Virus record (IMG/VR): IMGVR_UViG_3300036715_003254
Span: 62,001-126,000 of that record
Length of the DNA: 64,000 bases
Source of the DNA: a virus
Reading direction: 5' to 3' (one strand)
Below the pieces are notes generated by a model. It was not told the DNA's origin, ran no database searches, and saw only the letters and a list, made by a program, of their open reading frames with translations. Shown here one piece after another: positions 35,777-63,290 of this stretch. Within the stretch, counting starts at the first letter, position 1, and each line of letters opens with the position of its first letter. Made by a program: the position numbers and the translations under genes.

Positions 35777-35930
35777 GTGAACCGCTCCTTCGTAAAAGAA
35801 GAGCTTCCTAACTAACAACTTCCAACGAAGTTGAGCACGAAAGGCTTTGTGTTTATAGTCCACAAGGCTAGTTCCTAGCCCAAACGACTATGATTATATT
35901 ATATAATCAGTCGATAGCAAAAACAGATAG
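35777..35930 (-). mobile_element. tnpB-less IS605-like element with right end, upstream of ssb
   Basis: About 150 bases in the ssb leader. On the minus strand it runs C-T-A-T-C-G-A-C, ATCATAGTCGTTTGGG, GGAACTAGCC, AAGCCTTTCGTG, GTTAGTTAGGAAG, hairpin, GTTCAC. This is the same order and largely the same sequence as the 3' ends of both tnpB genes. The left-end hairpin is absent, so it is 5'-truncated. In TnpB systems the right end is the guide RNA scaffold, and the bases after GTTCAC would be the guide, here the leader just before the ssb ribosome site. Confidence 0.65.
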
Positions 35931-38033: not shown

Positions 38034-38150
38034 TTATTTTTGATGCGTTTTGAAGTAAGCGGACGCCTCTTCGGAAGTTGAGAATTTTTTTCCTGACAAA
38101 TTCAAAACATACGGAGAAGTATCACCAAAATAAGAAAGAGTCAATATAGA
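38034..38150 (-). pseudogene. C-terminal fragment of ~97-residue paralogue family, cut by TnpB element
   Basis: On the minus strand, directly after the right end of the TnpB element, a frame gives about 38 residues ending F-S-T-S-E-E-A-S-A-Y-F-K-T-H-Q-K-stop. This matches the C-terminal pattern of the family (F-P-S-S-A-K-A-I-A-Y-Y-K-K). The matching N-terminal piece lies at 39961-40010 on the other side of the insertion. About 40 central residues are missing. Confidence 0.65.
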
Positions 38151-38290
38151 GTGAACTGCCTACTCCTTAAAGGAGTCGGCTTCCTAACTAACAGCTTCCA
38201 GCGAAGCTGAAACACGAAAGGCTTTGCGTTTATATAAGTCCGCAAGGTTGGTTCCCAACCCAAACGACTTCATACCTCTATACAATATAT
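38151..38290 (-). ncRNA. Right end / guide-RNA scaffold of TnpB element 1
   Basis: It overlaps the 3' end of tnpB and runs to GTTCAC at 38156-38151, with a terminal stem ACTCC/GGAGT. It is related over ~120 bases to 53539-53660, 35777-35930 and 39842-39961. In known IS605 systems this segment is processed into the omega RNA and the flank supplies the guide. The guide here would be the interrupted paralogue gene. Expression not shown. Confidence 0.55.
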
Positions 38291-39593
38291 GTACTGAAGC
38301 TTGATGGTCAGGATTAGTCTGATGACCACAAGCTGTACATATAAATTTGTCTTGTTTAGGTCTATTGTTCTTATCAATATTACCACAGTTTAAACAAGTC
38401 ATAGAAGTATAGGAAGGATCTACTTTTACAAACAATTTGCCATTAAGCGACTGCTTGTATTCAAGCATAGATATAAACTGATAGAATGAAGCTCTTAAAA
38501 TTGATTTATTTAAACCTGCTTTTTGTCTTACATTTTTTCCGTGCTCGACTTCATTTCCTTTAGCAGATTTAGTCATTTGCTTTAGTTTAAGGTCTTCAAC
38601 TACTATCAAATCAAATTTGTTTGTTAATCTGGAGGAGATTTGATGATATAGATCCGTTCTTTTATTGATAATTCTTTTTTGTAGTTTATTTAATTGTTGT
38701 TGTGTTTTATTATAGTTTCTCCCTAGTTTGGTTTTTGATTTTTTGTTTTTTAGAATTCTTCTAGACTGCTTTCGCAAAAGAAGTTTGATTCTTTTGTTAT
38801 TCAGCATTGCTTTACGATTAGCAGAACCGTTGTTTATTAGATGTCCTGATTCAACCGATACTAAGTTTGGTATCGATTCAAAGAGAAAATCTACATCGTT
38901 TGAAACTGCAAAGTTATAAACATTCATATCTATACCTATACAATTTTCTTCATTCAAATTGTCGATAGATACAGGTTCTATTTCTTTTTCAAAAGAAATT
39001 CCTATGCTAGCGTAATAACCAGTCGCATCTCTAGATATAACAACAGAAGTTAACTTATATTCTTTTGGAAGTTCTCTATGATATCTTAGTTTTATGTTTT
39101 GCTTCATCAATTTCAAAATAGCAGTTCTTTTATCTGTTTCTTTAATAGATACTGCTTGATTGTTCCACACAAATGATTGTCTTACATCTTTACTTGATTT
39201 AAACTTTGGAAATCCGATTGATAGCGCTTTTGCTTTTTCTTTTGGAGTTTTTGCGTTTTGTAAAGCTTTATTTCTTTCATTAACAACATTTTTTGAGAAA
39301 GCTCGTTTAGTCGCCTTAAGAAAATTTATTCTAGCTTGTTGAATAACAACGGAAGAAAAAGGAATATTTCTAAGTTTTAAAGCTCTTTTTATAACTCTGT
39401 CGTAAGACGAATCCTTCCTGTATTTTCTATCTGCTTTCTCTAGCTTTCTATTTCTTTCTTGTTCTTTTTGCCATAGATTAAGACAGATGTTGTAGGCTTG
39501 ATTATAAACGAACATTTGATGGTCGAGAAGCTTCTTTTGTTCTTCTGTAGGATAGATCTGATATTTATAACCTAGATTTACAGTTTTGTTCAT
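38184..39593 (-). CDS. tnpB: TnpB RNA-guided nuclease (IS605-type OrfB), copy 1
   Basis: 469 residues. N-terminal L-G-Y-K-Y-Q-I-Y-P-T-E-E-Q-K helix-turn-helix part, then RuvC-like acids: I-G-I-D-M-N near 220-225, V-V-E-D-L-K near 332-337, and N-P-D-H-Q-A-S-V-H near 430-438. The zinc ribbon is C-L-N-C-G near 400-404 and C-T-A-C-G near 419-423. All expected catalytic positions are present, so it may be active. No tnpA is present. It is about 80% identical by eye to the copy at 53571-54980. It interrupts a member of the ~97-residue family. Confidence 0.85.
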   Translation of the reverse strand: MNKTVNLGYKYQIYPTEEQKKLLDHQMFVYNQAYNICLNLWQKEQERNRKLEKADRKYRKDSSYDRVIKRALKLRNIPFSSVVIQQARINFLKATKRAFSKNVVNERNKALQNAKTPKEKAKALSIGFPKFKSSKDVRQSFVWNNQAVSIKETDKRTAILKLMKQNIKLRYHRELPKEYKLTSVVISRDATGYYASIGISFEKEIEPVSIDNLNEENCIGIDMNVYNFAVSNDVDFLFESIPNLVSVESGHLINNGSANRKAMLNNKRIKLLLRKQSRRILKNKKSKTKLGRNYNKTQQQLNKLQKRIINKRTDLYHQISSRLTNKFDLIVVEDLKLKQMTKSAKGNEVEHGKNVRQKAGLNKSILRASFYQFISMLEYKQSLNGKLFVKVDPSYTSMTCLNCGNIDKNNRPKQDKFICTACGHQTNPDHQASVHILYRGMKSFGLGTNLADLYKRKAFRVSASLEAVS

Positions 39594-39741
39594 ACGAGAT
39601 TAATATTGTTCCTTAATAAGATTAATTATTTATTTGTAATCGAATTTTGTTTGAAATAGGTTCACTAAAGAAAATTTTTAATTTAGTTATTATACTATAA
39701 AAAAATTTAAATTAAACGAAAATAAAAGAAGACGAGATAAC

Positions 39742-39961
39742 TCCACCATCACCTGTAGGACGGCGATATAAACACATTAAATTAACATTTAACAATTTTC
39801 TGCTTTTGCTATCGACTAACTATAACAAATATGATATAATAATCATAGTCGTTTGGGCTGGGAACCAGCCTTGTGGACTATAAACACAAAGCCTTTCGTG
39901 CTCAGCTTCATTAGAGAAGCTGTTAGTTAGGAAGTACCGCCGTTACGGCGGTACGGTTTAT
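39742..39961 (+). mobile_element. Complete tnpB-less IS605-like element (left plus right end)
   Basis: About 220 bases on the plus strand. The left part (GTAGGACGGCGATATAAAC, then CACATTAAATTA and TTTTCTG) matches the solo left end at 18800-18885. The right part from TCGTTTGGGCTGGG to TTAGTTAGGAAG and the hairpin TACCGCC/GGCGGTA matches the tnpB right ends. It is oriented opposite to the adjacent tnpB, so two right ends face outward around it. The rest of the 586-base gap 39594-40179 is A/T-rich tnpB leader, the paralogue fragment and its promoter. Confidence 0.65.
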
Positions 39962-40010
39962 ATTCAGAAGTGAGTTTAGAAACGCCTAGATATTTTTCGA
40001 TGTTTTTCAT
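39961..40010 (-). pseudogene. N-terminal fragment of ~97-residue paralogue family
   Basis: ATG at 40010 with AAAAAAGGATTTC upstream gives M-K-N-I-E-K-Y-L-G-V-S-K-L-T-S-E-Y. This matches the family N-terminus exactly in pattern. The frame then enters the mobile element and stops within 12 codons. Its promoter (40037-40042) is intact. Confidence 0.7.
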
Positions 40011-40036
40011 TTTGAAATCCTTTTTTAATTTCAAAA

Positions 40037-40042
40037 ATTATA
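40037..40042 (-). promoter_or_regulatory. Early-type promoter -10 TATAAT of broken paralogue
   Basis: TATAAT preceded by TTAAGCTTTCTTTAAG on the minus strand. The same leader occurs before intact family members. Confidence 0.6.
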
Positions 40043-40160
40043 GCTAAACTTTTCTTTAAGAAAGCTTAATTCCCGAAAGATTTAAATATTTCGGTGTAAT
40101 CTTTAAGCAAATTTTTAACCGATTTATTGTGGAAGAAAACAATCCGTTATCAATAGAAAG

Positions 40161-52069: not shown

Positions 52070-52780
52070 TCAATCCTTTTTACATATTTCAGCTTTTCTA
52101 AAGTCACAATACTCACAAAGTCTGCTTTCACATTTTGGAAATTCTTCAGAAGTTTCTACGCCTCTTACCTTTTCTGCGAGTCCTTTCGCCATTTCTGAAA
52201 GACCACTTCTCTCGAAACAAATTTCGTTTTCGTTATCAGACTCTGGGTAGACATATGTACAGTGTATTCGGTTTACCTCTGGATACATTCTAAACAACCA
52301 AATAGCGTATAGTTTAACTTGCTCAAATGATTGGTATTGAAGATCTTTATACTTACCTGTTTTCCAATCCACAACCCAAAACTCGCCATCTTTTTTGAGA
52401 ATTTTATCGATGAAACCTCTAAATACAGCACTTTTAGAATAGTAATTACAAGGATTAAATTTCTCATCCAAGCCAAAAGCTACTTCTGTTCCAACAGTAA
52501 CAAATTCGTCAGAGTTAAGGTATTTTCCTACAAGACCACCTAAAGACCTTTCGAAAAGATCTTCTATGTCCTTTCTTAAGTCATCTGGAATTTTGTAATC
52601 AGGATTCGGTTTTTGTTCAACAGAGTATTGCTCGGTAAGATGGTGAAAATAGCTTCCTCTCAACAAAGCAATAGATGTTTCTACTTTTGGTCGAATTTTG
52701 TCTATATATGTCAGTTTGAATTTAAAAGGACAAGAATAGAATGTTTCTAACTTTGAATGCGAAAAAGGAGCGTATTTCAT
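52070..52780 (-). CDS. Cas4/RecB-type PD-(D/E)xK nuclease with Fe-S cysteines
   Basis: 236 residues. A first Cys at 15 (Y-S-C-P-F), G-x-x-x-H near 44-48, the nuclease core G-F-I-D-K near 125-129 and W-V-V-D-W-K-T-G-K near 139-147, then C near 217 and C-E-Y-C near 222-225 with a last C near 233. The four-Cys pattern is that of the Fe-S cluster in Cas4, AddB and related phage nucleases. Likely a 5'-3' exonuclease in recombination. It overlaps the first ~97-residue paralogue by 4 bases. There is no CRISPR array or other Cas gene in this window. Confidence 0.75.
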   Translation of the reverse strand: MKYAPFSHSKLETFYSCPFKFKLTYIDKIRPKVETSIALLRGSYFHHLTEQYSVEQKPNPDYKIPDDLRKDIEDLFERSLGGLVGKYLNSDEFVTVGTEVAFGLDEKFNPCNYYSKSAVFRGFIDKILKKDGEFWVVDWKTGKYKDLQYQSFEQVKLYAIWLFRMYPEVNRIHCTYVYPESDNENEICFERSGLSEMAKGLAEKVRGVETSEEFPKCESRLCEYCDFRKAEICKKD

Positions 52781-53067
52781 TTTGTCGCCGCTTTATAATA
52801 TCTGATTGCTTTAGCGGAATTTGGAAATATTTTGTCTGTCCAGTCGAAAACGTGTGACATACCATCAAATTTTCTTAATACATTAATAATGTAGATTCTT
52901 GAGTCAAGATTTTTCTCTGATGTTATAAACACAATCTCTTCTTCAGTATGTTTAAGAATTTTTCCTATTCTTCTTTTAAATGATATTCTTTCGATATCAC
53001 TAAAAAAGAAGCCTTTATAGTCAGAAGTAAGTTTAGATTCTCCAAGATATTTTTCGGCGTTATTCAT
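52777..53067 (-). CDS. ~97-residue paralogue family, copy A
   Basis: 96 residues. Family pattern: N-x-E-K-Y-L-G-x-S-K-L-T-x-x-Y-x-G-x-F-F at 3-22, K-I-L-K near 36-39, E-I-x-F-I-T-S-E-K near 44-53, R-x-Y-x-I-x-x-L-x-x-F near 57-67, F-P-x-S-A-K-A-I-x-Y-Y near 81-91. No known domain; composition suggests a compact alpha/beta fold. It has its own early promoter (53096) and overlaps the Cas4-like gene by 4 bases. Confidence 0.6.
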   Translation of the reverse strand: MNNAEKYLGESKLTSDYKGFFFSDIERISFKRRIGKILKHTEEEIVFITSEKNLDSRIYIINVLRKFDGMSHVFDWTDKIFPNSAKAIRYYKAATK

Positions 53068-53095
53068 ATTTGAATCTCCCTTTTTAATTTCGTAT

Positions 53096-53101
53096 ATTTT
53101 A
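53096..53101 (-). promoter_or_regulatory. Early-type promoter -10 TAAAAT
   Basis: Preceded by TTTAAGCTTTCTCTAAG on the minus strand; drives paralogue A. Confidence 0.5.
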
Positions 53102-53143
53102 TCTAAAATTTTCTTAGAGAAAGCTTAAAGAGAAAAGAAAAAA

Positions 53144-53446
53144 TTATTTAAACACCTTTTTGTAGTAAGCAATCGCTTTAGCGGAAGATGGGAATTTTTC
53201 ATCCGTCAAATCTCTAATATCAGGTCTTCCTTCGAATCTCTTAAGAACTCTGATGGAATAAAGTCTCAAACCAAAATCTTTATCTTCATATTTTTCCGAT
53301 GTTATGAATATTATCTCTTCATCAGTAGATTTAAGAATTTTTCCTACTCTGCTTTTGAAAATTTTCATATTGATATCACTAAAGAAAAAACCTTCATATT
53401 CGGAAGTGAGTTTAGAGTAACCTAGATATTTTTCGGCGTTATTCAT
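53144..53446 (-). CDS. ~97-residue paralogue family, copy B
   Basis: 100 residues, the same pattern as copy A with 4 extra residues near 53-57. It is closest to A (N-N-A-E-K-Y-L-G, G-F-F-F-S-D). Own promoter at 53475 and GGGAGA ribosome site. Downstream lies the broken C-terminus of another member, at the edge of the second TnpB element. Confidence 0.6.
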   Translation of the reverse strand: MNNAEKYLGYSKLTSEYEGFFFSDINMKIFKSRVGKILKSTDEEIIFITSEKYEDKDFGLRLYSIRVLKRFEGRPDIRDLTDEKFPSSAKAIAYYKKVFK

Positions 53447-53474
53447 ATTTAAATCTCCCTTTTTGATTTAGAAA

Positions 53475-53480
53475 ATCATA
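53475..53480 (-). promoter_or_regulatory. Early-type promoter -10 TATGAT
   Basis: Preceded by TTTAAGCTTTCTCTAAG on the minus strand; drives paralogue B. Confidence 0.45.
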
Positions 53481-53517
53481 CCTAAAAAATTCTTAGAGAA
53501 AGCTTAAAGGAAAGATT

Positions 53518-53538
53518 CTATTTGAACATCATTTCATA
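53518..53538 (-). pseudogene. Remnant C-terminus of a ~97-residue paralogue at TnpB element edge
   Basis: After the right end (GTTCAC) the frame reads Y-E-M-M-F-K-stop, like the family ending Y-Y-K-K-V-F-K-stop of copy B. It is short, so the call rests on the parallel with the clearer case at 38034-38150. Confidence 0.4.
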
Positions 53539-53660
53539 GTGAACCGCTCTGCCGTAAACGGCGGTGCTTCCTAACTAGCAGCTTCCAACGAAGCTGAAAC
53601 ACGAAAGGCTTTGTGTTTATATAAGTCCACAAGGTTAGTTCCTAGCCCAAACGACTTCAT
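53539..53660 (-). ncRNA. Right end / guide-RNA scaffold of TnpB element 2
   Basis: It overlaps the end of the tnpB gene and ends GTTCAC at 53544-53539, with a GCCG/CGGC hairpin before it. It shares the blocks TCGTTTGGG, AAGCCTTTCGTG and TTAGGAAGC with the other three right ends. The terminal hairpin differs in sequence but not in position. Confidence 0.55.
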
Positions 53661-54980
53661 ACCTCTATATAGTATATGTACTGAAGCTTGATGATCAGGA
53701 TTTGTTTCGTGTCCGCAAGCTGTACATTTAAATTTGTCTTGTTTTGGTCTGTTGTTCTTATCAATATTACCACAGTTTAAACAAGTCATAGAAGTATATG
53801 CAGGATCTACTTTCACAAACAATTTGCCATTAAGCGATTGCTTATATTCAAGCATAGAAGTAAACTGATAGAATGAAGCACCTAAAATAGCTTTGTTTAA
53901 ACCTGCTTTTTGTCTAACATTTTTTCCGTGTTTGACTTCATTTCCTTTAGCAGATTTAGTCATATTTTTCAATTTAAGGTCTTCAACTACTATCAAATCA
54001 AATTTGTTTGTTAATCTTGAAGAGATTTGGTGGTATAGATCCATTTTCTTATTAGTTATTTTCTTATGTAGTTTATTTAATTGTTGTTGTGTTTTATTAT
54101 AGTTTCTCCCTAATTTGGATTTTGTCTTTTTGCTTTTTAGGATTCTTCTTGATTGCTTTCGTTTAAGACGTCTAATTATGTCTTTTTCCGTCAGTATTTT
54201 ACGATTAGAAGAACCATTGTTAATGAAATTTCCTGATTCAACCGATACAAGATTAGATATCGGTTCAAAGAGAAAATCTATTTCACTTGATACTGCAAAG
54301 TTATATACATTCATATCTATACCTATACAATTGTCTTCTTTTAAACTGTTAATAGATATCTGTTCCATTTCCTTTTCAAAAGAAATTCCTACACTAGCGT
54401 AATAGCCTGTTGCATCTCTAGAAATTACAACAGAAGTAAGTTTATATTCTTTCGGCAGTTCTCTATGATATCTTAGTTTGATATTTTGCTTCATCAATTT
54501 CAAAATAGCATTTCTTTTATCTGTTTCTTTAATGCTCACATTTTGATTACTCCATACAGATGATTGTCTTACATCTTTACTTGATTTAAACTTTGGAAAA
54601 CCTATCGATAACGCTTTTGCTTTTTCTTTTGGAGTTATTGCTTTAGAAAGAGCTTTATTTCTTTCATCCACAACATATTTCGAAAATGCTCTTTTGACAG
54701 CTTTAAGGAAATTTATTCTAGCTTGTTGAATGACAACAGAAGAAAATGGTATTTTTCTAAGTTTTAAAGCTCTTTTTATAACTCTGTCGTAAGACGAATC
54801 TTTCCTGTATTTTCTTTGGTCTTTATCAAGCTTTTTGTTTCTTTCTTGTTCTTTTTGCCATAGATTAAGACAGATGTTATAAGATTGGTTATAAACGAAC
54901 ATTTGGTGATCAAGAACTTTCTTTTGTTCTTCAGTAGGATACAACCGATATTTATAACCTAGAAATACAGTTTTGTTCAT
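53571..54980 (-). CDS. tnpB: TnpB RNA-guided nuclease (IS605-type OrfB), copy 2
   Basis: 469 residues, same length as copy 1. RuvC-like acids: I-G-I-D-M-N near 220, V-V-E-D-L-K near 332, N-P-D-H-Q-A near 430. Zinc ribbon C-L-N-C-G and C-T-A-C-G. Differences from copy 1 are spread through the gene, mostly conservative, so both seem under selection. No tnpA nearby. No clear left end was found in the 167 bases upstream. Confidence 0.85.
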   Translation of the reverse strand: MNKTVFLGYKYRLYPTEEQKKVLDHQMFVYNQSYNICLNLWQKEQERNKKLDKDQRKYRKDSSYDRVIKRALKLRKIPFSSVVIQQARINFLKAVKRAFSKYVVDERNKALSKAITPKEKAKALSIGFPKFKSSKDVRQSSVWSNQNVSIKETDKRNAILKLMKQNIKLRYHRELPKEYKLTSVVISRDATGYYASVGISFEKEMEQISINSLKEDNCIGIDMNVYNFAVSSEIDFLFEPISNLVSVESGNFINNGSSNRKILTEKDIIRRLKRKQSRRILKSKKTKSKLGRNYNKTQQQLNKLHKKITNKKMDLYHQISSRLTNKFDLIVVEDLKLKNMTKSAKGNEVKHGKNVRQKAGLNKAILGASFYQFTSMLEYKQSLNGKLFVKVDPAYTSMTCLNCGNIDKNNRPKQDKFKCTACGHETNPDHQASVHILYRGMKSFGLGTNLVDLYKHKAFRVSASLEAAS

Positions 54981-55104
54981 ATAATTTAGCTTTAATCCAT
55001 TTTATAATTAGATTATTTATCTCTTTTCGCTTAAAAAATTATAACTGAAAAAAAGTTTAAAATAACTTAAAATCATCTTCTAACAAATTTCTACGAATAT
55101 TTTA

Positions 55105-55137
55105 GTGAACTACTCCTTCGTAAACAGCGGAGTGGTT
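55105..55137 (-). mobile_element. Fragment of an IS605-like right end
   Basis: On the minus strand a CCACTCC to GGAGT hairpin is followed by AGTTCAC, as at the tips of the other right ends. The scaffold upstream is missing. It lies between paralogue C and the leader of the second tnpB. Confidence 0.4.
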
Positions 55138-55147
55138 CGTTTGATTA

Positions 55148-55429
55148 TCATTTCTCATAATAAGCAATCGCATCGGCAAGAGCCGGAAAGCTTACATTTT
55201 CCCATTTAACAACTTGTGGATTTTCGTCTAATCTTCTAAGGGTTCTGATTACAAAAACTCTTTTGTAGTATTTTTCTGATGTCACGAAAATTATTTCGTC
55301 GTTACTAGATTTAAGAATTTTTTTGACTTTGAGCTTTAAATATTTCACATTTTCTTCGTCAAAGAAATCGCCTTTATAATCGGCTGTCAGTTTAGAGCGA
55401 CCTAGATATTTTTCGACGTTTGTTGTCAT
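55148..55429 (-). CDS. ~97-residue paralogue family, copy C
   Basis: 93 residues, begins M-T-T-N-V-E-K-Y-L-G-R-S-K-L-T-A-D-Y. All family landmarks present; it ends at A-I-A-Y-Y-E-K. Own TATAAT promoter at 55456 with phased TTTAAG tracts. A right-end fragment lies 10 bases downstream, so this locus may also have been visited by the element. Confidence 0.6.
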   Translation of the reverse strand: MTTNVEKYLGRSKLTADYKGDFFDEENVKYLKLKVKKILKSSNDEIIFVTSEKYYKRVFVIRTLRRLDENPQVVKWENVSFPALADAIAYYEK

Positions 55430-55455
55430 TTCAAAATCCTTTTTTAATTTCGAAA

Positions 55456-55461
55456 ATTATA
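55456..55461 (-). promoter_or_regulatory. Early-type promoter -10 TATAAT
   Basis: Preceded on the minus strand by TTTAAGCTTCCTTTAAGG; drives paralogue C. Confidence 0.6.
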
Positions 55462-55505
55462 TCTAAACTTACCTTAAAGGAAGCTTAAAAAGAAAAGATG
55501 GAAAT

Positions 55506-55796
55506 TTATTTAGACTCCTTTTTGTAGTAAGCAATTGCTTTAGCGGAAGATGAGAATTTTTTATCTGTCCAATGCGTAACACTTGTCTTTCCTTCAAGTC
55601 TTTTAAGAACCCTGACAGAATAAAGTCTTGTAACATAATATTTTTCTGATGTTATGAATATAATTTCATCTTCAGAATTTTTAAGAATTTTTCCTATTCT
55701 ACTTTTGAAAGATTTCATAGTGCTTTCATCGAAATAATACCCTTCACATTCAGCAGTAAGTTTAGAGTAACCTAGATATTTTTCTACATTTGTCAT
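55506..55796 (-). CDS. ~97-residue paralogue family, copy D
   Basis: 96 residues from ATG 55796 (AAAAAAGGATTTC site; an open frame to 55820 lacks a site). Family landmarks present, with C-E-G in place of Y-x-G near 17-19. Own promoter at 55823. The closest relative by eye is copy B. Confidence 0.6.
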   Translation of the reverse strand: MTNVEKYLGYSKLTAECEGYYFDESTMKSFKSRIGKILKNSEDEIIFITSEKYYVTRLYSVRVLKRLEGKTSVTHWTDKKFSSSAKAIAYYKKESK

Positions 55797-55822
55797 TTCG
55801 AAATCCTTTTTTAATTTCAAAA

Positions 55823-55828
55823 ATTATA
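55823..55828 (-). promoter_or_regulatory. Early-type promoter -10 TATAAT
   Basis: Preceded by TTTAAGCTTCCTTTAAG on the minus strand; drives paralogue D. Confidence 0.6.
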
Positions 55829-55851
55829 TCTAGATTTTTCTTAAAGGAAGC

Positions 55852-56274
55852 TTAAATTTCAAGTTTCCTGTTATCTTCTTGACCATTTTCATCAATTTTT
55901 TGATAATTACCTTCTGTGTAACCACCTTCTATTCGACTATGATTCAACTTATTCTTTTGATAATAACCATTCTCAAGTTCTTCCCAAGTCATATCAGATT
56001 CTTTCAACAAATATTTTAACATTCTTACACCAGATGAAACTGACATTCTTATATCTCTTAGATAAGTATAATAGATAAATCCTTGAAAGCCATTAAGAAT
56101 ATTCATAAGATTTGAATCATTACTTATAATATCTAGACCACTTTTTTCTAAATGAAGTTTTATAATATCTATATCAGATATTAATAGCCAACTTGTTAAC
56201 ATAAAATGAAGAATATCAACAATCTCAACTTTTTTATTTTGAGCGTCATCTTCTAGATTTTTCCTCCACCACTT
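55852..56274 (-). pseudogene. Dimeric dUTPase, C-terminal part after in-frame TAG
   Basis: In the same frame as 56526-56278, reading continues past TAG with K-W-W-R-K-N, then the metal-binding helix K-K-V-E-I-V-D-I-L-H-F-M and the family C-terminal motif Y-Y-Q-K-N-K-L-N-H-S-R-I-E-G-G-Y-T-E-G-N-Y-Q-K with E-D-N-R-K-L. These are typical of all-alpha dimeric dUTPases (MazG-like). A separate start exists only at ATG 56202, inside the catalytic helix, so independent function is unlikely. Confidence 0.7.
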
Positions 56275-56526
56275 CTAACCTTTAGTATTATTTGTAGCTA
56301 CTCCTCCAGATCTAGGTGAAGATTCAAGCCATTCAGCAAGTTCAGTTAATGCGGCAGCAAGAACCTGTTCCTGAGAAATAGACTCTCTCCAGTTTGGAAC
56401 ATATTTTGTATTTAGTATTTGTTGAGCTTCTAGAAGCCCTTTCGGGTCTTTAAACCTTTTTATTCCTTTAAAAGTTTTCTTTTGACAATATTTCTTCAAC
56501 GAACTTCTCAAACTCAGTTGTTCCAT
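56275..56526 (-). CDS. Dimeric dUTPase, N-terminal part ending at in-frame TAG
   Basis: Up to 83 residues. L-L-E-A-Q-Q-I-L-N and the first metal-binding helix T-E-L-A-E-W-L-E-S match dimeric dUTPases. The chain stops at TAG (56277-56275), where relatives continue W-K-W-W-like, consistent with a single TGG to TAG change or programmed readthrough. The ATG at 56526 overlaps the dNMP kinase gene by 59 bases, so the true start may be a later non-ATG codon near 56462. It would hydrolyse dUTP to supply ThyX with dUMP. Confidence 0.65.
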   Translation of the reverse strand: MEQLSLRSSLKKYCQKKTFKGIKRFKDPKGLLEAQQILNTKYVPNWRESISQEQVLAAALTELAEWLESSPRSGGVATNNTKG

Positions 56527-57010
56527 TCATACGATTTTCGAATGTATAACTAGCTTTAAAACTATCTTGTTGTTTATCAAAGTCATTCTTTTTATGAATA
56601 GGATTTTTATTTTCGATTTTAATAATTGTAAATCCATTCTTAATTGCCCAATTATATTCATTTGGTGTTCTTACATCTGAAATTACTATATTTTCTACAC
56701 CTTGAAGTAGTTCTAGATTTTCTTGAACCATTCTTATGAATATATTATCTTCTATTTGTCTGATTGAATTAAGACTTAACCAAATCTCTCTAGGAGTTTT
56801 ATCTATAAGTTCACCAGTAGATGTTCTTATATTAAGAGGCTTTTCTTTTTTTTCTGGAGGATAGTCTTGTTCGATCCAAGAAAAAATTTTCTTAGCACAC
56901 TTTTTTAATTGATCAGAAAAGCTTAATCTAACAAATCCTTTTGGTATAAGAACATTTTCTATAAGATAATCTTTTCCAGAACCAGAGTAACCATAAAGAG
57001 CTAATCTCAT
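56468..57010 (-). CDS. Deoxynucleoside monophosphate kinase (T4 gp1-like)
   Basis: 180 residues. P-loop G-Y-S-G-S-G-K-D at 7-14, L-S-F-S-D-Q-L-K-K near 28-36, and V-I-S-D-V-R-T-P-N-E near 109-118 are the pattern of phage dNMP kinases. It phosphorylates dNMPs to dNDPs in the phage nucleotide pool and probably works with ThyX and the dUTPase. Own promoter near 57033. Confidence 0.7.
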   Translation of the reverse strand: MRLALYGYSGSGKDYLIENVLIPKGFVRLSFSDQLKKCAKKIFSWIEQDYPPEKKEKPLNIRTSTGELIDKTPREIWLSLNSIRQIEDNIFIRMVQENLELLQGVENIVISDVRTPNEYNWAIKNGFTIIKIENKNPIHKKNDFDKQQDSFKASYTFENRMNGTTEFEKFVEEILSKENF

Positions 57011-57032
57011 AAATATCCTTTATTTTATGAAA

Positions 57033-57038
57033 ATTATA
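57033..57038 (-). promoter_or_regulatory. Early-type promoter -10 TATAAT
   Basis: Minus strand: TTAAACTTAATTAGAT then TATAAT; drives the dNMP kinase gene. Confidence 0.5.
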
Positions 57039-57123
57039 ATCTAATTAAGTTTAATTATTAGAACTCTTAAGACTGAAAAGACTTCCGCATTTTATACAAA
57101 TATAACAAATTATTGAAAAATTT

Positions 57124-57660
57124 CTAAGACTTTTCATTTTCTATGATATCCAAAATCTTTTTAACTACACCTTTTCCATTTTTAAGTGAAATAAAAGGAA
57201 TATTATTTTTAGTTAATAATTCTTTTATCTGTATCTCTTTTTGAATACTTTCTTCAAAATTATAATTTCTTCCATAATCTTCAAATTCAAACTCTAAATT
57301 TCTTTCAAGAAATATGTTTATATTTTCATATGAATTAAACATAGCTAAAACAAAATCATTAAACTCTTTTCTTGGAAGATGTTTATGATCAATTAAGTAA
57401 ACTAAACTTAAAAGAAATGGACTATCGTGTACAATATAGTCGACTTGATTATCAAGCTTAAATTGTGGAAAACTTTGTTCAGCAAAAACATGCGGTTGAT
57501 AGCTAAGAAGAATCCAATCTTTTCTATATACAAGACTCTTGGCATATTCATAAACATACTCTACAGAGTATCCCTTTCTCTTCATTTTACTAAAGAGCTG
57601 TGTAGTAACAGTTGATTTTCCACAAGATGGTCCGCCAAAAAGATTTATATTCACTGCCAT
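57124..57660 (-). CDS. P-loop NTPase / kinase (AAA_28-like)
   Basis: 178 residues. P-loop G-G-P-S-C-G-K-S-T at 9-17, Y-E-Y-A-K near 37-41, I-V-H-D-S-P-F near 76-82 (Walker B-like), and E-R-N near 119-121 preceding a lid-like region. The layout is that of small NadR or nucleoside-kinase-like ATPases found in T4-like phages. A role in nucleotide or NAD metabolism is likely, but the substrate is unknown. Confidence 0.65.
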   Translation of the reverse strand: MAVNINLFGGPSCGKSTVTTQLFSKMKRKGYSVEYVYEYAKSLVYRKDWILLSYQPHVFAEQSFPQFKLDNQVDYIVHDSPFLLSLVYLIDHKHLPRKEFNDFVLAMFNSYENINIFLERNLEFEFEDYGRNYNFEESIQKEIQIKELLTKNNIPFISLKNGKGVVKKILDIIENEKS

Positions 57661-57783
57661 AGGAAAGTCTATATCCTTTCTTGAATTTGAAAGTTAATTA
57701 TATTTTATCTGAAAAGGGTTTAAAAATATTTTACCAGATTTATTAAATCTTTTAATATGTTTTTCTGATATAAAGAATATATT

Positions 57784-58326
57784 TTAATTATTATAATCCT
57801 TTAAAAGAAACTCTTCATTAATATCTTCCCAAGAGTCTACTGTTAAGAAACGATTATCATTTCCAGAACAAAACATATTTTTAAATCTTATTATTTTTGT
57901 ATCTGGTTGATATTTTTTAACTAATTCAAGATTTTCTGTATGATCATCAATAAAAATGTCCATTTTAATATATTGTTTTTCTTTAGTTGAAATAAAACCT
58001 GAAGCAAAAGGAAAATATCTGTTCAAAAATCTTTGTTTACTATTGATATGTTCTGGAAAACAAGCCGAAACGAAAACAATATCATAGCTTTCTGAAAGTT
58101 TTTTCAAGACATCAACCGAATGTTCAAATGGAAAAAGGTCATCATATAAAGTATCTATTTTCCAAAAGTCTGATGGACTCGGATGGTTTACCATAAGCTC
58201 ATCAATAAAATAATGATTTTTCTTTGGAACAAACTTAGAATTTGTTTCGTCTTCGTACCATTTTATCCATTTTGTGACAGGATCCACAACGGTAAGATCC
58301 ACATCAACGCCGAGTACCTTTCTCAT
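57784..58326 (-). CDS. HAD-family 5'(3')-deoxyribonucleotidase-like protein
   Basis: 180 residues. Catalytic D-V-D-L-T-V-V-D at 8-15, motif II S-A-C near 91-93, Lys near 113 and D-I-F-I-D-D-H near 123-129. These are the HAD motifs of the NT5C family that dephosphorylates deoxynucleotides. With dNMP kinase, ThyX and dUTPase it forms a nucleotide-pool block. Own promoter at 58356. Confidence 0.7.
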   Translation of the reverse strand: MRKVLGVDVDLTVVDPVTKWIKWYEDETNSKFVPKKNHYFIDELMVNHPSPSDFWKIDTLYDDLFPFEHSVDVLKKLSESYDIVFVSACFPEHINSKQRFLNRYFPFASGFISTKEKQYIKMDIFIDDHTENLELVKKYQPDTKIIRFKNMFCSGNDNRFLTVDSWEDINEEFLLKDYNN

Positions 58327-58355
58327 ATTTTTCCTTTATCTTTTTTATTTGATAA

Positions 58356-58361
58356 ATTATA
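58356..58361 (-). promoter_or_regulatory. Early-type promoter -10 TATAAT
   Basis: Minus strand: TTTAAGTCTTCTTTAAGG upstream; drives the HAD gene. Confidence 0.6.
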
Positions 58362-58384
58362 TCTAGATTTTCCTTAAAGAAGAC

Positions 58385-58687
58385 TTAAAGAAAAAATTCA
58401 TTTAACGATTTTTTGTAGTATTCGATAGCATCATCGAGAGTCGAAAAAAATTTATCTTTCCTCCAAAAAATATGAGGTTTTTCGCTTAATCTGGTAAGAA
58501 ACTTGACGAAAAAAAATCTTTCGCCATCGCATTCTTCTGATGTTATAAACGCTATTTCCTCATCAGTATCTTCAAGAATTTTTTCGACTCGGATTTTTAA
58601 AGAATTCATATTCTCATCACTAAAGAAAGAACCTTTATAATCGGCGGCAAGTTTAGATTCGCCAAGATATTTTTCGGCGTTTGTCAT
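58385..58687 (-). CDS. ~97-residue paralogue family, copy E
   Basis: 100 residues from ATG 58687 (AAAAGGA site; the open frame runs back to 58747 into copy F). Family landmarks present: E-K-Y-L-G-E-S-K-L, I-A-F-I-T-S-E, A-I-E-Y-Y-K-K, with a longer tail N-E-F-F-L. Downstream of copies F and G in the same operon. Confidence 0.6.
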   Translation of the reverse strand: MTNAEKYLGESKLAADYKGSFFSDENMNSLKIRVEKILEDTDEEIAFITSEECDGERFFFVKFLTRLSEKPHIFWRKDKFFSTLDDAIEYYKKSLNEFFL

Positions 58688-58709
58688 ATAAATCCTTTTA
58701 AAAGAAAAT

Positions 58710-58997
58710 TCATTTAGCCGCCTCTTCGTAAAAGGCGACGGCATCAACTAAAGTTGGAAAATATTCGTTTGTCCATTCAACGACTCGAGGGATATCATCA
58801 AATCTTTTGAGAACTCTAATAACAAAAACTCTCTTTTTGTGTTTTTCTCTTGTTATGAAAATTATTTCTTCGTCGCTAGATTTAAGAATTTTTATGAATT
58901 TTCTTTTGAAGATTTTCATTTTATTTATGTCAAAGAAAGAGCCTCTATAATCGGCTGTAAGCCGAGAAACTCCGAGACAATTTTCGATATTTGTCAT
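58710..58997 (-). CDS. ~97-residue paralogue family, copy F
   Basis: 95 residues beginning M-T-N-I-E-N-C-L-G-V-S-R-L-T. The conserved K-Y is N-C here and S-K is S-R, so it is one of the more diverged members. Its ATG follows the stop of copy G directly (TAAATG), so translation is coupled. Confidence 0.6.
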   Translation of the reverse strand: MTNIENCLGVSRLTADYRGSFFDINKMKIFKRKFIKILKSSDEEIIFITREKHKKRVFVIRVLKRFDDIPRVVEWTNEYFPTLVDAVAFYEEAAK

Positions 58998-59297
58998 TTA
59001 AACGCCTAAATTATTTTGTTTTTCAAAATATTCGATCGCTTCTTCAGCAGTCGAAAAAACAGGATCTAACAAAATGAAAATACGAGGTTTTTTACGAAAT
59101 TTTTTAAGAGTTCTGATGATGTATATCCTTTTATCAAGAATTTTTTCTGATGTTAAAAACATAATTTTATTTGAAGTGTATTTAAGTATTTTCTCTATTT
59201 GTAAATCACGAGATTCAATAAATTCTTCATCAAAGAAATTGTCTTCGTATTCGGTGGTAAGTTTAGAAGTCCCGAGATATTTTTCGATGTTTTTCAT
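58998..59297 (-). CDS. ~97-residue paralogue family, copy G
   Basis: 99 residues beginning M-K-N-I-E-K-Y-L-G-T-S-K-L-T. Family landmarks present with F-L-T-S-E-K and A-I-E-Y-F-E-K. Own promoter at 59323. First gene of the G-F-E cluster. Confidence 0.6.
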   Translation of the reverse strand: MKNIEKYLGTSKLTTEYEDNFFDEEFIESRDLQIEKILKYTSNKIMFLTSEKILDKRIYIIRTLKKFRKKPRIFILLDPVFSTAEEAIEYFEKQNNLGV

Positions 59298-59322
59298 TTT
59301 GAAACCCTTTTTAATTTCGAAA

Positions 59323-59328
59323 ATTATA
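59323..59328 (-). promoter_or_regulatory. Early-type promoter -10 TATAAT-like (TATAAT)
   Basis: Upstream TTTAAGGTAAGTTTAGT on the minus strand; drives the G-F-E cluster. Confidence 0.55.
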
Positions 59329-59363
59329 ACTAAACTTACCTTAAATTACACTTAATGAGAATT

Positions 59364-59657
59364 TTATTTTGCGAGGCTTTCGTAATATTTTATAGCTTTA
59401 AACGGAGTTTCAAATTCCATATTTACAAAGTCATAAACGCCAGGAACATCATCATCTACTCTTTTTAGAATGTTTATTCTATAAATTCTTTTATTGACTC
59501 CTTTTTTAGATACCAGAAAAATCGCTTCTTCGTCGTCATTTTTTAGAACTTTTCCGATTCTGATGTCCAATTTTCTTAAAAATTTACTGTCAAAATAGTT
59601 ACCTCTAAAATCAGAAGTGAGTTTAGTATTACCTAGATATTTTTCGATGTTTTTCAT
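59364..59657 (-). CDS. ~97-residue paralogue family, copy H
   Basis: 97 residues, M-K-N-I-E-K-Y-L-G-N-T-K-L-T. The most diverged copy: T-S-E-K is V-S-K-K and the C-terminal part reads F-E-T-P-F-K-A-I-K-Y-Y. Own promoter at 59687. It lies just downstream of the C-terminal polymerase gene. Confidence 0.6.
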   Translation of the reverse strand: MKNIEKYLGNTKLTSDFRGNYFDSKFLRKLDIRIGKVLKNDDEEAIFLVSKKGVNKRIYRINILKRVDDDVPGVYDFVNMEFETPFKAIKYYESLAK

Positions 59658-59686
59658 TTTGGAATCCTTCTTTTTTAATTTAGAAA

Positions 59687-59692
59687 ATTATA
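59687..59692 (-). promoter_or_regulatory. Early-type promoter -10 TATAAT
   Basis: Upstream TTTAAGCTTTCTTTAAG on the minus strand; drives paralogue H. Confidence 0.6.
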
Positions 59693-59749
59693 ACTAAACT
59701 TTTCTTAAAGAAAGCTTAAATAGAGAAATTATTTCATAAATTTTCGTTT

Positions 59750-60889
59750 TCAAAAATCTTCTAAACTTTCTACTTTTTCTAATTTCCAATTCAAAGGCTT
59801 CGCAAGAATTTCTATATTTGGAAGAAAACTTTGTACCCAATTCTTTTCATAGTCTATTATATTCGGCGGCAAATAATCAAAAATTCTCTCGTCGAGAAAG
59901 CCCATAACTGGATAGCCTAGTTTGTTCGGCTCTTTCAAATAAAGGAAATGAAGTCTATCCTCTAATGTTATTTTTCTAAATTCTTTTAAAAGGTTATTTT
60001 TCTCTATATACTCATTGTGTGACATCGCTGCTCTTGAGTTTATAGGTATAGGAAGCTTAGCACCATTTTTATTTGTTCTTTCGGAATATCCTGTTGCTAG
60101 GTCATAGTCAAAACTGTTTACACCTAGAATTTTAGAAATTTCTTTAGGAGACGCTTTCATAAACTCTTTTTTAATTCCTTTTAACCAATCTAGTAATTGG
60201 TCGTTATTTCCATAAAGGAATATGTCAAGAGATTTAACAACCTCTTTTCTGACAAATAATGGTGTAGAGGATTTTACTAGTGTAATTCCCTTCATTACTC
60301 TTTCAGGTTTTGCGTATCTAACACCTTCATTATCGAGAACATCACATATATAGGTTTTCTTACCCATAATTAAGAAAACAGAACAAATCTTTTCTCTCTC
60401 GCAAACCAACACTTCAGGCTTTTGAATATTAAATCTACTAGAAAACTCTTTTATTGAGTCATCAATTATAGGTTGGATTTTTACTTTTACAAATTTGTCT
60501 AGGAATGTTGCTATTTCGTCGTCAGTTTTTTCACCGACTTTTTCGATCCAAGAATCGACTATTGGTTCGAGAGTAAACATAGCCGAGTCTGTATCACCAT
60601 AAACTAAAAACTCTTTATTCTTATAAGTTGGACTTAGAGCTTTAAGTTTTTTATTAACTTCACTAGACATAAATCTGTTAAGGTATCTACCATTAGAAGT
60701 TATCGACGCTGCTATTTCATTATCAAACAAAACGAAATATTCATTAGCGAAAGCTCCATAACCGGAGTTAAGTGAAATTTTCAAGGCTTGCTCAATTAAG
60801 TAATATCTCTCATATTCGGTTTTACAATATTCTTTAAGCTTTTCTAATTCTTCTAGACTCAATGAGGATAGATCTTCAGGTATTTCCAT
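59750..60889 (-). CDS. 43B: DNA polymerase gp43, C-terminal part (43B)
   Basis: 379 residues. It carries family B motif B K-I-S-L-N-S-G-Y-G-A near 47-56 and motif C V-Y-G-D-T-D-S near 97-103, then the thumb region, ending with a basic clamp-binding-like tail (D-F end). It lacks the exonuclease and motif A, which are in 43A (61728-63290). It has its own ATG with AAAAAGG and its own TATAAT promoter (60909), so it is made as a separate protein and must pair with 43A. Confidence 0.85.
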   Translation of the reverse strand: MEIPEDLSSLSLEELEKLKEYCKTEYERYYLIEQALKISLNSGYGAFANEYFVLFDNEIAASITSNGRYLNRFMSSEVNKKLKALSPTYKNKEFLVYGDTDSAMFTLEPIVDSWIEKVGEKTDDEIATFLDKFVKVKIQPIIDDSIKEFSSRFNIQKPEVLVCEREKICSVFLIMGKKTYICDVLDNEGVRYAKPERVMKGITLVKSSTPLFVRKEVVKSLDIFLYGNNDQLLDWLKGIKKEFMKASPKEISKILGVNSFDYDLATGYSERTNKNGAKLPIPINSRAAMSHNEYIEKNNLLKEFRKITLEDRLHFLYLKEPNKLGYPVMGFLDERIFDYLPPNIIDYEKNWVQSFLPNIEILAKPLNWKLEKVESLEDF

Positions 60890-60914: not shown

Positions 60915-61011
60915 CTGAATTTAGGTTTAAAATTTGGGAGGAATAAATAAGAAGTATCGTTCGCGAGATGGCAGTCTCCAACGACTCTATGATAAAAGGA
61001 GTATCACAGCA

Positions 61012-61731
61012 ATGAACTATTTATTACACTACAACAAATTAATCGAAAGAGCTAAAACAAGAAAGCTCGAAACCTACAAAGAAAAACACCATATTATCCC
61101 TAGATGTATCGGCGGAACTGACGCAAAAGAAAATCTAGTTGAACTGACGGCAAGAGAACATTTTGTCGCACATCAGCTTCTTATAAAAATTTATCCAGAA
61201 GAAGCTTCTCTTGTATATGCAGCAAGAATGATATGTGTTGACAGATACGGAAATAGAGTTTCGAATAGGCTCTACTCTTGGTTAAAAGAAAAATATTCTG
61301 AAAAGGTATCGGAACAACACAAAGGAAATAGCTATACAAAAGGGAGAAAACTTTCAAAAGAACACTGTGAAAAACTTTCCATCATAGCCAAAGAAAGATT
61401 GTCTGTAAAGGAAAATCATCCTATGTTCGGTAAAAAACATAGTGAAGAAACTAAAGAAAAGATTAGACAAAAACATTTAGGCGTCGGTATTGGAAGAAAA
61501 CATACAGAAGAGACCAAACAAAAAATAAGAGATTCTCTAGGCGATATATCTGGCGAAAATCATCCTTGTTTCGGTAAAAAACATAGCGATGAAACTAAGA
61601 AAAAGATTGGTCAACAAATTTCAGGTAGAAAATATATGAATAACGGTATTGAGACAAAAGCAGTCAAACCAGAAGACATCGAAACATATCTACAAAATGG
61701 CTTTAGTTTTGGTGTATTGAGAAAGAACTAA
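61012..61731 (+). CDS. HNH homing endonuclease inserted between polymerase halves
   Basis: 239 residues from ATG 61012 (AAAAGGAG site; a TTG start at 60934 would add a poorly supported leader). HNH core: E-K-H-H-I-I-P-R-C-I-G-G-T near 23-35, N-L-V-E-L-T near 40, E-H-F-V-A-H near 48-53. Then three NUMOD3-type units (G-K-K-H-S-E-E-T-K near 140, 160 and 185) for DNA recognition. It lies on the opposite strand to gene 43 and its stop abuts that of 43A. Insertion near motif A/B is a known mobE-like site in Aeromonas T4-like phages. Confidence 0.8.
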   Translation: MNYLLHYNKLIERAKTRKLETYKEKHHIIPRCIGGTDAKENLVELTAREHFVAHQLLIKIYPEEASLVYAARMICVDRYGNRVSNRLYSWLKEKYSEKVSEQHKGNSYTKGRKLSKEHCEKLSIIAKERLSVKENHPMFGKKHSEETKEKIRQKHLGVGIGRKHTEETKQKIRDSLGDISGENHPCFGKKHSDETKKKIGQQISGRKYMNNGIETKAVKPEDIETYLQNGFSFGVLRKN

Positions 61732-63290
61732 GTAGTTCTTCTCTCAATTTCTTTCCTCAATCTCTCATACTCTCTTTTGAAGTTTTGACTCTTTTTCTTT
61801 TCATTTTTTCTTTTATGATACATATTTTCCATCAATTCAGAAAGAAGACCTTGTTTTTCATTACTGAAAGGAATACCAAGAGTACTGAAAGAGATGTTTT
61901 CGGCTAGACATATTTTTTTGATATAAGCTAGAACATCTTCTGGTATAGATAAAACTTGTTCTTCATCTTCTGAAAAGTATTGTCTTATGATTTTTTGTAT
62001 ATCAGGATATTTCTTACTTAATTCTACTAAAGGAACTTTTACATCAGGAGATAGGTTTGCTGAAACAATAGTATTTGGATAAAGCGAGTTCCAGTCAATC
62101 GTCGCAACCCAACGATATTTTCCTGGTACAGGATTCATTACCCAGCCACCTTTAATAGATCCAAAAGAATCATTAACAGAATCATTAGGTAATACAAGAC
62201 CTCTTTGTAAAGCCTTATTGTAAACATACATTCCCCAAGGTCTAACTGTTCCTAGAGCGTCGTCAAGAGTAATACCCATCATATCTGCGATAGTTTTTTG
62301 TATAGCGATAATAGATTTTTTCGCTTCTATGTCAACTATCAACTGTACATCTTTAATACCATACTCTACAAACTTTGTAAAGTCTCTGTAGTAAAGGTCT
62401 GTCAGGTTTTCGAATTCGTCATATTCTACCTTCGAGTCTCCTAGTTCTACCCTCGCTATATTGTTAAGCGAATAGCTGTCTCTTGGAACAAGAACAAACT
62501 TTTTATAGGTATCCAACATATCAACTATTACAAAACCAGAAATATCACATTCAAAAGCTGTTTGACCTTGATACTCTTTCATAGTTAGTTTATAAGTTCC
62601 AAACTCTGACAGATTTCCAGGATCCATACCTAGCTTTTTAAAACGATTAATGATATAAGGGATGTCGAAACCTTTTATATTCCAACCAGCTATAATTAAC
62701 GGATTTAGAATTCTGATTGTTTTGGCAAAACCCAAAAGCATATTTTCTTCGCTTGAAAACTTTTTGAATTTTACTTCTTCTTTAAATTTACTTTGAATGT
62801 ATTCTTTATCTAGATTAGCGTCCGAAGTATAGAAACAAAAATATTTTTTCTCGAACGAATCATAAAACTGAAATAGAGAAATAGGAAATTCCGCTTTCTC
62901 TGGATAAGGAAACCCAGCATCAGAAGTAACTTCTATATCTAGGAATAAAATTTTCGGCGTAGAGTATTCTGCTTTTTCAAAAAAGTTTTCAAATATGTAC
63001 GAATACATACCGTTTCTTTTTCCATAGGTTTTAAAATTTGAAAGTCCGCCATAATTCTTTTCAAATTCTTGAAACTCTTTATTATTTTTGAATGTTAGTT
63101 TCTTTAGATTGATTGATTTGTTAAGAAAATATTTGTATCCAGTTTCTTCTTTAGATTCAACAAATAATTCATAAGGAATGTTTACTTCTTCGAAATGGGA
63201 GTTATTCAAATTATCTTGATAGCGAAGTATGGTCTTATAGCCGGATTTGAAAATATGTTCAAACTTTCTTTTCAAAACAATCCTTTTCAA
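61728..63290 (-). CDS. 43A: DNA polymerase gp43, N-terminal part (43A)
   Basis: 520 residues. 3'-5' exonuclease motifs: F-L-D-I-E-V near 115-120, N-I-K-G-F-D near 207-212, and Y-G-I-K-D near 309-313. Palm motif A D-W-N-S-L-Y-P-N near 395-402. The chain ends R-R-T-T-stop in the fingers, just before motif B. 43A plus 43B total 899 residues, the same as intact T4 gp43 (898), so nothing is missing. Own promoter at 63303. Confidence 0.88.
   Translation of the reverse strand: MKRIVLKRKFEHIFKSGYKTILRYQDNLNNSHFEEVNIPYELFVESKEETGYKYFLNKSINLKKLTFKNNKEFQEFEKNYGGLSNFKTYGKRNGMYSYIFENFFEKAEYSTPKILFLDIEVTSDAGFPYPEKAEFPISLFQFYDSFEKKYFCFYTSDANLDKEYIQSKFKEEVKFKKFSSEENMLLGFAKTIRILNPLIIAGWNIKGFDIPYIINRFKKLGMDPGNLSEFGTYKLTMKEYQGQTAFECDISGFVIVDMLDTYKKFVLVPRDSYSLNNIARVELGDSKVEYDEFENLTDLYYRDFTKFVEYGIKDVQLIVDIEAKKSIIAIQKTIADMMGITLDDALGTVRPWGMYVYNKALQRGLVLPNDSVNDSFGSIKGGWVMNPVPGKYRWVATIDWNSLYPNTIVSANLSPDVKVPLVELSKKYPDIQKIIRQYFSEDEEQVLSIPEDVLAYIKKICLAENISFSTLGIPFSNEKQGLLSELMENMYHKRKNEKKKSQNFKREYERLRKEIERRTT

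Follow-up and report, generated by a model that had tools for sequence, protein, structure and literature searches.

The minus strand between positions 52777 and 59657 of the window (the whole 64,000-nucleotide stretch of viral DNA analysed here) raises the question of why a phage would keep so many divergent copies of one small gene, and what the encoded protein might do. An earlier note, made from the DNA letters, had described eight intact copies of an unrecognised family in this interval, and the open reading frames of the window locate all eight (A to H), which are paralogues of 93–100 amino acids. When the search was extended to the complete record of 138,481 bases, a ninth intact copy (J) and two pieces of a tenth (I) came to light. 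The nine intact copies and the broken one occupy three separate places in the genome.

Copies of the family and their surroundings

The copies and the two TnpB elements are as follows (bit scores refer to the Pfam family DUF7447).

52777..53067, minus strand: copy A, 96 aa, DUF7447-like
53144..53446, minus strand: copy B, 100 aa, DUF7447 at 31.4 bits, above the Pfam cut-off
55148..55429, minus strand: copy C, 93 aa
55506..55796, minus strand: copy D, 96 aa, top DUF7447 match (36.2 bits, E 6.9e-9)
58385..58687, minus strand: copy E, 100 aa, without its own promoter, in the likely operon G-F-E
58710..58997, minus strand: copy F, 95 aa, 24.8 bits, above the Pfam cut-off
58998..59297, minus strand: copy G, 99 aa, at the head of the likely operon G-F-E, weakest DUF7447 match
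59364..59657, minus strand: copy H, 97 aa
G000:C1:9904-10197: ninth intact copy (J), outside the window
38034..40010, minus strand: broken copy I, N- and C-terminal pieces with a TnpB element between them
38184-39593: tnpB of the first TnpB element, between the two pieces of broken copy I
53571..54980, minus strand: tnpB of the second TnpB element, between copies B and C, neither of which is broken

The motifs that had been named as common to the copies are indeed shared, as EKYLGxSKLT, EI.F.TSE and AI..Y are each present in at least eight of the nine, and the strong divergence described elsewhere in the protein is borne out by pairwise amino-acid identities of 33–67%. All indels among the copies are in-frame, and dN/dS lies between 0.17 and 0.62 in all 35 unsaturated copy pairs, with high dS. 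The copies are therefore real, old and maintained coding genes under purifying selection. The stop codon of copy A overlaps the start of a PD-(D/E)XK nuclease gene (52070-52780). Copy F starts directly after the stop of copy G, and copy E comes next after F, so that G-F-E is likely an operon.

The earlier note also held that the family had been amplified and then disrupted by a mobile element, and the nine intact copies and the TnpB element in the tenth confirm this. It was right that at least one copy is broken, but the break lies at 38034-40010, outside the interval of the eight intact copies in which it had been placed. The N-terminal piece of broken copy I consists of the first 19 codons (39954-40010) and the C-terminal piece of the last 40 or so (38034-38159), with about 32 codons missing. 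The two tnpB genes are 87% identical in DNA. Solo 3'-end fragments, at least four of them and about 100–220 nt long, each made of the tnpB tail and the terminal hairpin, were also seen (window 35777-35927 and 39847-39958; genome G000:C1:1-218 and 820-955), and these are possibly omegaRNA or non-autonomous elements. One solo fragment, in the opposite orientation, is situated inside broken copy I, where it is flanked by the conserved SKLTSEY codons of the family in antisense.

The gp43 DNA polymerase and the terminase are about 31–39% identical to those of T4-like Vibrio and Campylobacter phages, and the closest records to the phage TnpB come from Helicobacter phages. The virus is a T4-like phage, and its host is likely in the Campylobacterota. 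A search for closer relatives using gp43 and the nuclease turned up no other virus, just one further contig of this one. The gp43 gene is split into two minus-strand ORFs (59750-60889 and 61728-63290) with an HNH/NUMOD3 endonuclease gene (60934-61731) between them on the opposite strand. The copies sit among the genes for gp43, dUTPase, the PD-(D/E)XK nuclease and ThyX. The dUTPase_2 gene (window 55852-56526, between copies D and H) is itself split by one in-frame TAG; recoding of TAG was rejected as the cause, since TAG ends 14 of 131 ORFs. Adjoining ThyX are four tandem ORFs, identified by eye from their translations as Hsp20-like small heat-shock proteins (L009:13505-15325, window about 47.7-49.6 kb, minus strand), which form a second amplified family in the same virus. 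Two low-complexity Gly-rich (GDGSGSGYG) ORFs are found near the DNA ligase gene, outside the window (L019:13217-13510 and 13878-14207).

Assignment to DUF7447 and distribution of the family

The description of the family as unrecognised was mistaken. By profile searches, the copies belong to Pfam DUF7447 (PF24239), or PHROG 4655, a family of unknown function. Copies B, D and F exceed the curated Pfam cut-off of 24.1 bits, copies A, C, E and J score lower, and G and H are unlisted; PHROG 4655 was matched by four copies. As the iterated profile had included the window's copies, the test was repeated with only the 29 DUF7447 members from outside the window. This profile recovered all nine copies with E-values from 5e-13 to 8e-3, against 0.22 for the best background ORF among 8,313 sequences, and a profile–profile comparison (hhalign) of the copies with DUF7447 gave a probability of 96.7% and an E-value of 3.2e-10.

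The copies can be aligned over their whole length with DUF7447 proteins such as Goe8_c00130, NootNoot gp16, Listeria phage A511 gp175 and Listeria phage CKA15_194. Common to both are H/F-FF-D..M..F, F.TSE, R.Y..R and a C-terminal helix with an invariant Ala; in an alignment of 37 sequences, F23, F48 and A88 are invariant, while S51, E52 and Y60 reach at least 90%. Like the copies, the typical DUF7447 member is a small phage protein encoded near early genes. The copies differ in their extra N-terminal EKYLGxSKLT block, in scores that leave six of the nine below the Pfam cut-off, and in having lost the TVGEFQ motif of typical members, in place of which xxWTDxxFP is found. TVGEFQ is frequent in DUF7447, yet it is also absent from CKA15_194, which scores 81.9 bits, and the motif was therefore not taken as defining the family.

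A profile search of the PDB, including solved inhibitors (anti-CRISPR, anti-CBASS, Thoeris and other inhibitors), gave nothing significant, the best E-values being 0.21–0.27, for an affimer. No match of weight was obtained to known defence proteins in PADLOC or to NCBIfam families, and the literature search found no paper that names DUF7447 or PHROG 4655. A Cellulophaga phage ORF, phi17:2_007, has a similar N-terminus (E 8) and no DUF7447 match, and the similarity was taken as chance. The idea that the proteins are DNA mimics was rejected, as net charge ranges from -8 to +9 across the family.

DUF7447 was found at 43 viral loci, in phages of Streptomyces, Rhodococcus, Corynebacterium, Bacillus, Listeria, Burkholderia and Brevundimonas and in marine phages. 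The plasmids searched contained none, and 84,980 bacterial and archaeal genomes yielded one (bacterial) locus, a count that is a lower bound since the scan was seeded by short patterns. The family is almost confined to phages. It spans Herelleviridae, Stanwilliamsviridae, Zierdtviridae, a T7-like phage, large Burkholderia phages and now a T4-like phage. The 24 other records surveyed each carry a single copy, doubled where the record includes both terminal repeats; the comparison of copy numbers that the earlier note had proposed therefore sets one per phage (or per terminal repeat) against nine intact copies here. The novelty lies in a divergent branch with tenfold amplification, in a family that is otherwise present once per phage. 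The long terminal repeats hold the gene in Goe8 and the Stanwilliamsviridae, and in a marine T7-like phage it precedes the RNA polymerase gene by three genes. Genes for recombination or DNA modification are found close by in several relatives; clustering of neighbours across relatives showed little beyond near-identical Streptomyces phages.

Promoters and the timing of expression

A common 39-nt, sigma70-like unit, typified by ATTTAAGCTTTCTTTAAGAAAAGTTTAGTTATAATTTTC, is found upstream of copies A, B, C, D, G and H, of the copy outside the window and of the broken copy. Near-identical promoters had been claimed for most copies, and this holds for those just named, but E and F, which lie behind G in the likely operon, have none. 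The units in the window are listed below.

40033..40071, minus strand: unit of the broken copy
53092..53130, minus strand: unit of copy A
53471..53509, minus strand: unit of copy B
55452..55490, minus strand: unit of copy C
55819..55857, minus strand: unit of copy D
58352..58390, minus strand: unit before the NT5C-type phosphatase gene (57784-58326), which is no family member
59319..59357, minus strand: unit of the likely operon G-F-E
59683..59721, minus strand: unit of copy H

A matrix built from the eight family sites found 16 sites in the genome that score at least 20, the same eight counted among them, against none at this score in five Markov simulations. Among the remaining eight are sites before the DNA ligase gene (genome 11974) and the NT5C phosphatase gene (window 58390). 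Since half of the strong sites precede other genes, the unit is a promoter class of the phage, half of it used by the DUF7447 family and not private to it. The 39-nt promoter would be expected to fire early in this phage. However, because DNA ligase and nucleotide-metabolism genes are under it too, the expression class in this phage may be delayed-early, with no special tie to host takeover.

Direct information on timing comes from CKA15_194, which is a DUF7447 member with an E-value of 3.7e-23. Time-resolved RNA-seq placed it among five promoter-bearing genes that at 5 min each account for more than 1% of all transcripts (PMC12282133). Its promoter resembles those of the housekeeping sigma factor, it is located among the genes surrounding CKA15_190 that peak at 5 min, and it is absent from the 29 listed virion proteins (PMC12282133). 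The authors of that study tie the 5-min genes to host takeover (PMC12282133). The early, non-virion behaviour of this one homologue is thus well supported, and the link between a top immediate-early transcript of CKA15 and DUF7447 is drawn in this analysis. The early expression that the earlier note ascribed to the family accordingly stands for CKA15_194 and agrees with the gene positions in relatives; in the present phage, it is the promoter, common with DNA ligase, that may point to it.

Proposed role and comparison with known systems

At roughly even odds (a probability of about 0.5), the family consists of immediate-early host-takeover or counter-defence proteins amplified in this lineage, small binders that act on a host factor and whose paralogues cover target variants. 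Each copy would be transcribed soon after infection by the host RNA polymerase from its sigma70-like promoter, and the protein would be kept out of the virion. As a small stoichiometric binder, it would inhibit or redirect a protein of the host, whether from a defence system or from the core machinery, and duplication followed by divergence would allow several target variants to be covered. Early timing in this phage, inhibitory action and target diversity are the presumed parts of this proposal. It draws on the place of CKA15_194 among the 5-min transcripts and off the virion list, on DUF7447 genes in terminal repeats (Goe8, Stanwilliamsviridae) or shortly ahead of a phage RNA polymerase gene, on the near-restriction to phages, on nine copies kept intact under purifying selection, and on the archaeal-virus precedent of a strong common promoter that marks anti-defence genes (PMC11065993). 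Counting against it, pairwise dN/dS gives no sign of the positive selection that an arms race might leave, other viruses have recombination and DNA-modification genes as neighbours, and solved inhibitors show no similarity in sequence. The broader claim that DUF7447 is a general, unrecognised immediate-early counter-defence class, with each paralogue here blocking a different host defence variant, is doubtful.

The setting of the copies among gp43, dUTPase, nuclease and ThyX genes would also suit an early-made small nucleic-acid-binding accessory for phage DNA or RNA metabolism, present in several copies for dose or for different partners and not for host inhibition. The promoter class that also drives DNA ligase and the NT5C phosphatase, and the recombination or modification genes near several relatives, point the same way. 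However, CKA15_194 peaks with the 5-min genes and not with the nucleic-acid metabolism genes of CKA15, which form a 15-min set (PMC12282133), and nine divergent copies would rarely be needed when relatives manage with one; this reading is considered unlikely. Rather less probable is amplification for dose, or a neutral build-up of tandem duplicates in a region that tolerates them, all copies having the same function and target. The same promoter unit on six copies indicates that gene and promoter were duplicated as a cassette, dN/dS is below 1 in all pairs and TnpB elements accumulate in the same region, all of which would fit, yet identity has fallen to 33–67% with high dS while nine of ten copies stayed intact, and the copies occupy three separate places in the genome. 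A role of the copies as minor structural or late proteins is very improbable, and the structural one was rejected: CKA15_194 is early and off the CKA15 virion list, profile searches gave no structural-family match, and no T4-type late promoter (TATAAATA) was found upstream of any copy.

The 5-min transcript and the tenfold amplification together make DUF7447 a concrete candidate for a widespread host-takeover or counter-defence protein, and, should the targets of the paralogues differ, these proteins would offer a natural panel with which to map a binding surface. A known counterpart is the host-takeover module in the terminal repeats of SPO1, a phage related to Goe8 (PMC6873191; PMC12282133). 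This module is a group of small early proteins, several of which slow host growth (PMC6873191), and the DUF7447 gene of Goe8 lies in the terminal repeats that correspond to it. A search of SPO1 itself found no DUF7447 member, and the SPO1 takeover genes are mostly unrelated to one another, whereas the present phage repeats a single family. In archaeal viruses, anti-defence genes were discovered through a common strong promoter before small early genes (PMC11065993). As in that set, the genes here are small, scattered and preceded by one conserved strong promoter, which is early in the archaeal viruses; here, in contrast, a single family accounts for half of the promoter sites, and the likeness concerns the promoter arrangement.
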